From positions 1-64,000 of the forward strand of contig NZ_BBXE01000018.1 of the NCBI RefSeq assembly GCF_001570565.1: a DNA stretch of 64,000 bases. Direction: 5' to 3'. Shown here in pieces: positions 33,950 to 37,548 of the stretch (its first letter is position 1; each line of letters begins with the position of its first letter). The notes below the pieces were generated by a model. That model saw only the letters and a program-made list of their open reading frames with translations, had not been told where the DNA came from and did no database searches. The DNA comes from Herbidospora yilanensis (lineage in GTDB: Bacteria > Actinomycetota > Actinomycetes > Streptosporangiales > Streptosporangiaceae). Made by a program: the position numbers and the translations under genes.

Positions 33950-34180
33950 TGAATTTCCTCCTTGCCGATACGGCCCCCGCACCGACCCATCTGCCGCAAA
34001 GGTGATCGAGCGCGATTTCCCGGGAAAATCGGTGAGGTTAATAGCCGATTACCGAAACTTCACTCAATCAATGAACGCGGCGGACGGCGCTATCATTGAC
34101 CGGGAGCGCCGGAAAACTCGGAAACGCGTCCGTCATCGCGCGGAAACGCCATTGAAACCGATCTTTCTTAGGGTCCGGCC
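33950..34180. promoter_or_regulatory. Divergent urt / ure promoter region
   Basis: 231-bp AT-richer gap between urtA (minus) and ureA (plus). It contains the near-palindrome CGATTTCCCGGGAAAATCG (34012-34030) and an AT-rich stretch GTTAATAGCCGATTACCGAAAC (34037-34058). ACTAAGAAAGATC-type AT content precedes ureA. Nitrogen control (GlnR) is expected for such loci, but no clean GlnR repeat spacing was seen. No ORF. Confidence 0.5.
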
Positions 34181-34483
34181 ATGCGGCTCACCCCACACGA
34201 GCAGGAACGCCTGCTCATTCACGTAGCGGCCGGCGTCGCGCGCGACCGGATGGACCGGGGCCTGCGCCTGAACCATCCGGAGGCCACCGCGATCATCGCC
34301 TCGTTCCTGCTCGAAGGGGCCCGCGACGGCCAGTCGGTCGCCGAACTCATGGACGCGGGCCGCAAGGTCCTGCGCCGTCAGGACGTCATGGAGGGCGTGC
34401 CGGAAATGCTGGACTCCGTGCAGATCGAGGCGACCTTCCCCGACGGCACCAAGCTCGTCACCGTCCACCACCCCATCTCTTGA
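34181..34483 (+). CDS. ureA: Urease gamma subunit
   Basis: 100-residue UreA of exact family length: [60 protein letters not shown], and the C-terminal [10 protein letters not shown]. The terminal TGA lies inside TTGACC, the end of the downstream IS200/IS605-type element, so the element appears to supply or coincide with the stop. The normal ureA-ureB adjacency is broken by about 1 kb. Confidence 0.95.
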
Positions 34484-34600
34484 CCTCTCCCCATCGCAGG
34501 GGTTCTCACGGTCACCCGCGAGAATTCCCGTTTCACCGCCGGCCGCCCGCCAGAGAGGAGTCTCCCTTGGGGTCTTACACCAGCTCCGCAGGCGTTTCAC
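34480..34600 (-). ncRNA. Putative omega-RNA (reRNA) at the element right end
   Basis: Immediately after the tnpB stop, the minus strand carries two hairpins typical of TnpB guide RNAs: TTCTCGCGG...CCGTGAGAA (one mismatch) and CCCC-TGCGAT-GGGG, then AGAGGTCAA at the element border. In active systems the guide is the flanking sequence past this border; here that would be GAGATGGGGTGGTGGACGG, antisense to the end of ureA. The RNA probably also overlaps the 3' end of tnpB. Expression not shown. Confidence 0.45.
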
Positions 34601-35376
34601 CTCTCGGCCAGCCCGGCCGCGAGGATGTTCTCGGCCGCGTTCACGTCTCGGTCGTGAGAGGCGCCGCAGGCCGAGCACCGTTTGCTGGAGGGAAACCAGC
34701 GGTCGACGACGATCAGCTCCCGCCCATACCAGGCGGCTTTGTCAGCCAGCGTCGAGCGCAGTTCCCGCCATCCCGCATCGCTGATCGTGCGTGCGAGCGA
34801 TCGGTTCTTGACCATGCTGGCGACGTTCAGATCTTCCACGGCGATCACTTGGTTCTCGCGAACCAGCCGTGTGGTGACCTTGTGCGAATGATCTCGCCTG
34901 CGATCGGCGGTTCTGGCCTGGATCCGGGCGACGACCTGTTTGGCTCTGGCCCGGTTGCCGCTGCCTTTGGGCAGCGGTCGCGACCACACGATGTCCAGCG
35001 GAGCGTCCATCTTGGCCCGGGTCAGCCTGCCTCCACGCCAACGGAACGCCGAACGGGTGTACTCGGCGGAAGCCCGCGACCGCTTCCGAGACTTGAACGC
35101 CGGGTTCCCGAACGCCACGTGAAGATGTCGCAGGGCCTGCCGCAGCGGAACACACGACACCTCACTGAGAAAACTCAGCTCCTTCGTGCGTTTCCATGCC
35201 GTCAACCTGGCCGGGGACTGCATGTAGGAGGTCCTTTCGCCCTCCACCCGATAAGCATGGATCCGTTCCTCCAAGGCCTTGTTGTAGACCAGACGTACAC
35301 AACCGAACGTCCGGGACAACTCCTCTGCCTGCTCGGAGGCCGGATGGAAGCGGTACCTGTAAGCCCGCTTCACCAT
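34597..35376 (-). pseudogene. tnpB: Internally deleted TnpB (IS605 OrfB family)
   Basis: 259-residue open frame from ATG 35376; intact TnpB is about 380-420. Kept: N-terminal MVKRAYRYRFHPASEQAEEL, SAEYTRSAFRWRGGRL, RuvC-II VIAVEDLNVASMV, DRWFPSSKRCSACG, and RuvC-III HDRDVNAAENILAAGL. Missing: a stretch after AFG (normally FFAGRxxYP), about 85-90 residues between WSRPLPKG and GNRARAKQ including the RuvC-I GxDxG Asp, and the second CxxCG half of the zinc ribbon. All three losses keep the frame. Cleavage activity should be lost; RNA or DNA binding might remain. In-frame codons extend upstream to 35427 but lack family similarity. Confidence 0.7.
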
Positions 35377-35459
35377 CTTCGCCACGATCGGCAATCCAGC
35401 CCGGATCGAGCGGAAAATAGAACACATGTTCGATCTTGTGATGCCAGCCTGTATCTCCT

Positions 35460-35479
35460 CTCCCGCCCGCAGGCGGGAG
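35460..35479. repeat. Left-end subterminal hairpin of the IS element
   Basis: CTCCCGCC - CGCA - GGCGGGAG, a perfect 8-bp stem with 4-nt loop upstream of tnpB. IS200/IS605 transposases recognise such subterminal hairpins. It also lies 23 bp before the ureB start, so it forms part of the ureB leader. Confidence 0.7.
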
Positions 35480-35501
35480 TATCCACCCTTTGGGAGCGTT
35501 G

Positions 35502-35820
35502 ATGACCGTCCCCGGAGAGATCATCCCGGGCGAGACGCCCGTCCCGCTGAACCCGGGGCGTGAGCGGGTGACCGTGCGTGTGGTGAACACCGCCGACCGG
35601 CCCGTCCAGGTGGGCTCCCACTACCATTTCGCCGCCGCCAACCCGGGGCTCGACTTCGACCGCGAGGCCGCCTGGGGCCACCGGCTCGACGTGCCGGCGG
35701 GCACCGCCGTCCGGTTCGAGCCGGGCGTCGAGCGTGACGTCACCCTGGTGCCCATCACCGGGAAGCGGGTCGTGCCCGGCCTGCGCTCCGAATGGGCCGG
35801 CCCTCTCGACGGGAGCCCCC

Positions 35821-35828
<8 letters not shown>
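35502..35828 (+). CDS. ureB: Urease beta subunit
   Basis: 108-residue Ure[77 protein letters not shown] 35502 has GGGAG 7 nt upstream, so it keeps its own ribosome site despite the insertion between it and ureA. The stop overlaps ureC by 8 bp. Part of the UreABC trimer-of-trimers. Confidence 0.96.

Positions 35829-37548
<1,720 letters not shown>

Follow-up and report, generated by a model that had tools for sequence, protein, structure and literature searches.

IStrons are tnpB elements with a self-splicing intron. The element described here, found between the urease genes ureA and ureB of Herbidospora yilanensis, resembles them in that a tnpB element spares the gene it enters at the level of RNA or translation, but it rebuilds a stop codon, a ribosome-binding site and a start codon, and no splicing is involved. 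With the tnpB-only IS605 elements (IS1341 type) it shares the domains of OrfB/TnpB, a tetranucleotide target 3′ of which it inserts without duplication, and a right-end RNA that resembles a guide scaffold. It differs from them in that the TCAT target is used as an ATGA start codon, the left end carries an outward-facing Shine-Dalgarno-like sequence, and TnpB has undergone deletions. Two other described groups are relevant to these deletions. Passages of a report on Haloquadratum (PMC3119063) describe core-deleted IS605-type elements and PATEs, in which internal deletions, some of them flanked by repeats, leave the ends in place. The H. yilanensis copy is likewise an IS605-type element with internal deletions and remaining ends, but it differs from those depicted in these passages in keeping the reading frame and most of the gene. 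The TldRs are described, in excerpts of PMC13418256, as arising through RuvC mutation. The element is similar to them, as they appear there, in encoding a nuclease-dead TnpB relative accompanied by a scaffold-like RNA. It is unlike them in that the domain was deleted, not mutated, the transposon ends are intact, and no conserved partner gene or lineage was found in the genomes searched.

The urease locus and its insertion

The window, i.e., the whole stretch of 64,000 nucleotides that was analysed, belongs to a genome of 7.85 Mb. The original prediction had placed an IS605-type element that splits ureA from ureB at 34480-35501, and the alignment of its ends with those of relatives and the empty sites in congeners gave exactly these coordinates. 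The features of the locus are as follows.

34480..35501, minus strand: whole element, tnpB-only IS605/IS1341-type, 1,022 bp, without target duplication (end alignment, empty sites in six congeners)
34181..34483, plus strand: ureA (urease gamma), intact; Pfam Urease_gamma
35502..35828, plus strand: ureB (urease beta), intact; Pfam Urease_beta
35502..35505, minus strand: TCAT target (TAM-like), the reverse complement of the ATGA start of ureB
35492..35496, plus strand: GGGAG, a Shine-Dalgarno-like site from the left end of the element, 5 nt before the ureB ATG (35502)
34480..34483, plus strand: TTGA of the right end, which gives ureA its TGA stop (34481-34483) in frame

The left end is at 35501, immediately after the TCAT, and the right end, reading ...GGTCAA, stops at 34480. 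Three Pfam models above their cut-offs, conserved ends and a fixed target without duplication identify the element as a member of the IS605/IS1341 type. The absence of a target duplication was established by empty sites in congeners for this element and for three other family copies. In all six other Herbidospora genomes examined, one per species, ureA and ureB overlap by ATGA and the junction is uninterrupted. The last ureA codon is TCT in the window and TCA (four) or ACA (two) in these congeners. Pairing with the anti-Shine-Dalgarno sequence before ureB is -7.6 kcal/mol with the element, compared with -0.7 kcal/mol for the pre-insertion sequence. An Rfam scan of 34100-35900 returned a sole match, mir-718, whose 27.1 bits lie far below the cut-off of 55 and which was attributed to chance.

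The element inserted 3′ of the minus-strand TCAT, exactly into the ATGA by which the stop of ureA and the start of ureB overlap. The sequence shows that this event left both frames whole: the ureB side keeps its ATGA and has gained GGGAG, and the terminal TTGA now provides the ureA stop. The translational coupling of ureA and ureB was probably replaced by independent initiation.

The shortened TnpB and the right-end RNA

Pfam identified HTH_OrfB_IS605, the C-terminal part of OrfB_IS605 and Cas12f1-like_TNB in the open reading frame at 35427..34597 (minus strand). In a frameshift-aware alignment the gene differed from its intact relatives by exactly three deletions, all multiples of 3, and contained no stop. 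These results agree with the original prediction, which had described three frame-keeping deletions with loss of RuvC-I and of half of the zinc ribbon, and had stated that the N-terminal part and the right-end hairpins remain.

34597..35385, minus strand: tnpB carrying the three in-frame deletions; its conserved start is the GTG at 35385, and a longer open reading frame starts at ATG 35427
35103..35104, minus strand: joint of the 24-nt deletion (AFGN/PAF), from alignment to relatives
34968..34969, minus strand: joint of the 240-nt deletion (LP/KGS), RuvC-I with the catalytic Asp gone; from alignment, including that of intact relatives with ISDra2 TnpB structures
34668..34669, minus strand: joint left by the 54-nt deletion, which took away half of the zinc ribbon; from alignment
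34480..34620, minus strand: region of the right-end, guide-scaffold-like RNA; scores 128 bits against covariance model R1
34449..34479, minus strand: putative guide, antisense to the 3′ end of ureA; TCAA, not TCAT, adjoins it

We take the remaining motifs IAVEDL and HDRDVN to be RuvC-II and RuvC-III, respectively. Neither the RuvC D-E-D triad nor the zinc ribbon of an active TnpB nuclease is complete in this protein. The largest deletion removed 80 residues across the WED/RuvC joint, so the protein does not show the TldR trait of a dead nuclease in an otherwise kept fold. The AF2 model of the short TnpB had a pLDDT of 53.2 and a pTM of 0.34 and was devoid of RuvC strands, and the intact control was poor too (60.5 and 0.42), which makes the predicted fold uninformative. 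With these three deletions the nuclease is broken and very probably dead.

Model R1 was built from 38 relatives. The window right end ranks 33rd of 40 loci (window included, most of them outside the model), which score between 98 and 180 bits. The right ends of the out-of-frame copies L199 and L200 reach 158 and 163 bits, respectively, and that of the badly degraded L198 reaches 134. Since frameshifted copies such as L199 and L200 keep their right-end RNA too, the preservation of this region says nothing on function. One column that is invariant in 38 of 38 relatives is altered in the window, where CAGGAA has become CGGGAA. The guide was correctly foreseen to be antisense to the 3′ end of ureA; its length is our assumption. 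The 16-nt pattern composed of TCAT and 12 guide nucleotides has no exact match in the H. yilanensis genome, and up to 3 mismatches yielded 27 matches, compared with 26 for the reversed pattern. TCAT followed by the first 8 guide nucleotides was found at two sites, C13:677941 and C45:22255, which is chance level. At the empty site of the congeners TCAT is present, but guide position 6 differs in 6 of 6 and position 2 in two.

The survival of one open frame through three deletions had been taken as an outcome that random decay would rarely produce. Direct repeats in tnpB showed that this rarity was overstated. Among repeats located 10-300 nt apart in 78 intact relatives, the in-frame share rose with repeat length, being 37% for exactly 2 nt, 40% for 3, 46% for 4, 52% for 5, 57% for at least 6, 70% for at least 8 and 81% for at least 10 nt; in shuffled genes it was 34% at 6 nt or more. 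With these shares, all three deletions would fall in frame with a probability of about 5-19% if repeats of 2 to 6 nt were used, and in about a third of cases with repeats of at least 8 nt; the naive figure is 4%. The window joints cannot be read exactly, the nearest intact copy being about 79% identical. The low end of the range may apply because the joints of L055 and L057, which have intact copies at 88-89% identity, have only 2-3 nt in common.

Deletions of both kinds occur elsewhere in the family. In-frame deletions were found in L055 (126 nt), L056 (135), L057 (216), L059 (165), L220 (123), L161 (36, plus an extra 7-nt insertion) and L153 (96), and out-of-frame deletions in L199 (11 nt), L200 (341) and L153 (22); L055-L059 and L220 were taken from lists in which similarity to the window protein set the order, and this favours in-frame copies. 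In the set collected with an N-terminal probe (L135-L204), the two in-frame deletions of L153 and L161 compare with the three out-of-frame ones of L153, L199 and L200, in a tally that leaves aside rows scoring below 1000, contig ends, a 12-nt deletion/33-nt insertion pair in L145 and the 217-nt out-of-frame gap of L163. L055, L056, L057 and L059 each have an open tnpB with a single internal in-frame deletion, at differing positions, and a background-like omega. L220, on a viral contig from IMG/VR, is a family copy with its own deletion.

The search for the same shortened TnpB in relatives, suggested together with the original prediction, gave no second copy among the loci and candidates covered. 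The same three deletions are present in no other locus among 151 aligned (window included) and 59 more, and a 47-residue probe across the largest joint, run on 297 family genomes with at most 23 candidates scored in each, matched end to end only in the window. A conserved lineage tied to a non-transposon gene, as expected of a TldR, was not seen: the form is present in 0 of 6 congeners and in 1 of 297 family genomes, its own. Selection was analysed with a custom codon model (50 taxa, F3x4, branch-specific omega, FastTree topology). The omega of the window branch, 0.165, was the highest of 22 tips tested (the next was 0.146), with a background of 0.092; 2ΔlnL was 4.7 versus the background and 31.0 versus omega = 1. 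Most of this branch was passed as a constrained TnpB, and the excess omega would fit a neutral share that we estimate at roughly 8%. Three of the 69 surviving invariant positions, which were defined from 74 intact copies, are changed in the window protein (Q82R, L131R and Y303D). In those 74 copies the median number of changes is 0 and the maximum 3 in 93 positions, and the other five deleted copies have 0-2 (from 0 of 78 to 2 of 80). Both tests are weak for recent deaths, because a sister copy with a broken C-terminus (C13:255k) has an omega of 0.095, i.e., the background value, and the other deleted copies break few positions.

Readings of the element

Y1 transposase (Y1_Tnp, PF01797) had no match in the H. 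yilanensis genome and one match in one of the six other Herbidospora genomes. Elements of the tnpB-only type depend on this enzyme to move, though not for their classification, and the present copy is in this sense a stranded one. The H. yilanensis genome holds further remains of the family. A sister tnpB, placed by the 50-taxon tree, lies at C13:254815-255911 (L032, L153) and has a 96-nt in-frame and a 22-nt out-of-frame deletion; a solo right end retaining about 17 tnpB codons lies at C13:518964-519098 (L212), and C13:246k holds a piece of a related tnpB. Three full-length TnpBs of this genome, at C29, C33 and C34, are distant (30-34% identity). Lacking a Y1 transposase, the element would have been stranded after its insertion into the ATGA overlap, and the three deletions would then have inactivated the TnpB nuclease and, probably, the protein as well. 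We consider it likely, with good confidence, that what is now seen is a recent, nearly harmless relic devoid of RNA-guided activity. This is the best reading because no Y1 transposase was found, wrecks are present in the same genome and core deletion is known in IS605-type elements. The original prediction had allowed for a simple relic as its alternative, and the empty congener sites, the wrecks and the missing transposase bear it out. That close strains might lack the element had been named as evidence against a function, and this proved to be the case at the level of congeners (6 of 6 empty), in a comparison of one genome per species. The differing deletions of other copies, the highest branch omega and the changed invariant positions also point to a relic. 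An open frame after three deletions and an omega far below 1 count against it; they fit a recent death and would fit a constrained protein as well.

These last two observations are part of what a minimal TldR-like repressor would explain, in which the short TnpB binds the right-end RNA and a target without cutting. The loss of the catalytic Asp and the retention of the N-terminal part and of a scaffold-like RNA would also be expected of it, and a short guide might use the two sites with TCAT and 8 nt. However, no second locus of the same form was found among the aligned loci and the 297 family genomes, near matches to TCAT and the guide are no commoner than those of the reversed pattern, the congener sites are empty, the transposon ends are intact, and 3 of 69 invariant positions are changed. 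In addition, the protein has lost 80 residues across the WED/RuvC joint, as opposed to the RuvC mutation described for TldRs in the excerpts of PMC13418256, and the structural model, poor like its control, has no RuvC strands. This reading, which the original prediction had raised, fails most tests that could be run; it is not supported and we regard it as most improbable. Scarcely more credible is a function of the RNA only, either serving another TnpB in trans or acting as an antisense RNA on the ureA mRNA. The right-end RNA is well preserved, it reads antisense to ureA, and three full-length TnpBs are available in the genome, but these are distant, the sole close relative found there is itself broken, the otherwise invariant column is changed, and the antisense orientation follows from the insertion habit of the family. 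The element might instead be kept because its left end alters ureB translation, making initiation uncoupled and stronger, with the dead tnpB as a passenger. The gain in anti-Shine-Dalgarno pairing over the displaced sequence agrees with this possibility, which we consider improbable, if somewhat less so than the other two; the element is found in one genome only, so nothing shows selection, and a 1-kb antisense insert may lower the downstream mRNA.

Insertion at start codons across the family

The relic shares its mode of insertion with the sampled copies of its family. These lie 3′ of TCAT, which corresponds to ATGA start codons on the opposite strand, and carry a Shine-Dalgarno-like sequence in the left end. 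A first set consisted of 68 insertions, window included, from 81 loci (L055-L134); the ends of the other 13 (L056, L057, L059, L064, L065, L066, L069, L074, L077, L127, L129, L131 and L133) were not found. The open reading frames that start outward from TCAT had a median of 294.5 codons at the 68 sites and 67 at 1,170 control ATGAs in the flanks. By codon-position GC, 45 of the 68 docked ATGAs were start-like, compared with 148 of the 1,170 controls (Fisher p 1.6e-22). These sites are not all independent, as L067 and L088 represent one insertion inherited by two species. The copies concerned, L088 in H. sakaeratensis and L067/L294 in H. galbida, share the insertion at the same start codon and both have an intact tnpB; Y1 transposase was not found in either genome (G001, G003). 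A second set (L135-L202) gave 12 start-like ATGAs out of 18, versus 5 of 36 controls, and median open reading frames of 307.5 versus 52 codons. It was obtained from 70 loci after leaving out 8 with a low alignment score, 27 with ends not found or short flanks and 17 that repeated the first set, and its sites are partly related to that set (L135 resembles L081). The viral loci are a weak set: the pattern detected no left end in 21 of 29, and among the other eight there are two that open into reading frames of only 29 and 39 codons.

When 20 docked open reading frames, taken at random from the 67 outside the window and cut at 400 codons, were searched with Pfam, 16 had a domain, and in 14 of these the match began at profile position 7 or earlier. 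L070 and L095 may be internal starts. A Shine-Dalgarno sequence is present in the left end at 67 of the 68 sites, and the mean anti-Shine-Dalgarno pairing was -9.7 kcal/mol for the element end, -7.0 for the displaced sequence and -5.1 for the controls, the element being stronger at 53 of 68; this count and these energies are partly built in, as the left-end pattern demands CTCC for most loci. The start-codon enrichment and the empty sites are independent of that pattern. Empty sites in congeners fixed the exact ends of three other insertions, all without duplication, and at the L088 site one of the six congeners (L294) has the insertion too. An upstream stop overlaps the ATGA at 23 of 68 sites, and therefore the terminal TTGA, derived from TCAA ends, restores the stop. 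Because the family docks at ATGA start codons with a TCAT target, the guide region is antisense to the stretch just upstream of the docked gene's start.

The docking habit may stem from a choice of target, from the persistence of insertions that do no harm, or from ends that have been shaped for it. No report of it was found in one collection of open-access papers, including passages of PMC7290912 and PMC9956272. We tentatively propose, at somewhat less than even chance, that the family ends act as a translational adaptor selected for such landing: TCAT would direct the element to ATGA starts, the left end would supply a Shine-Dalgarno sequence that on average surpasses the native one in strength, and TTGA would restore the upstream stop at ATGA overlaps, so that the element hides in operons sparing both proteins and its guide watches a conserved start.

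The H. yilanensis copy illustrates how a dead TnpB can pass for a domesticated one, with an open frame and a kept guide RNA. Frame-keeping deletions in this GC-rich gene occur so often that they argue only weakly for a function. The start-codon docking of the family is the part of the finding that deserves attention. Docking at start codons with an own ribosome-binding site would explain the low-cost life of tnpB elements inside operons, and it would give a biological reason for the TCAT target/TAM.
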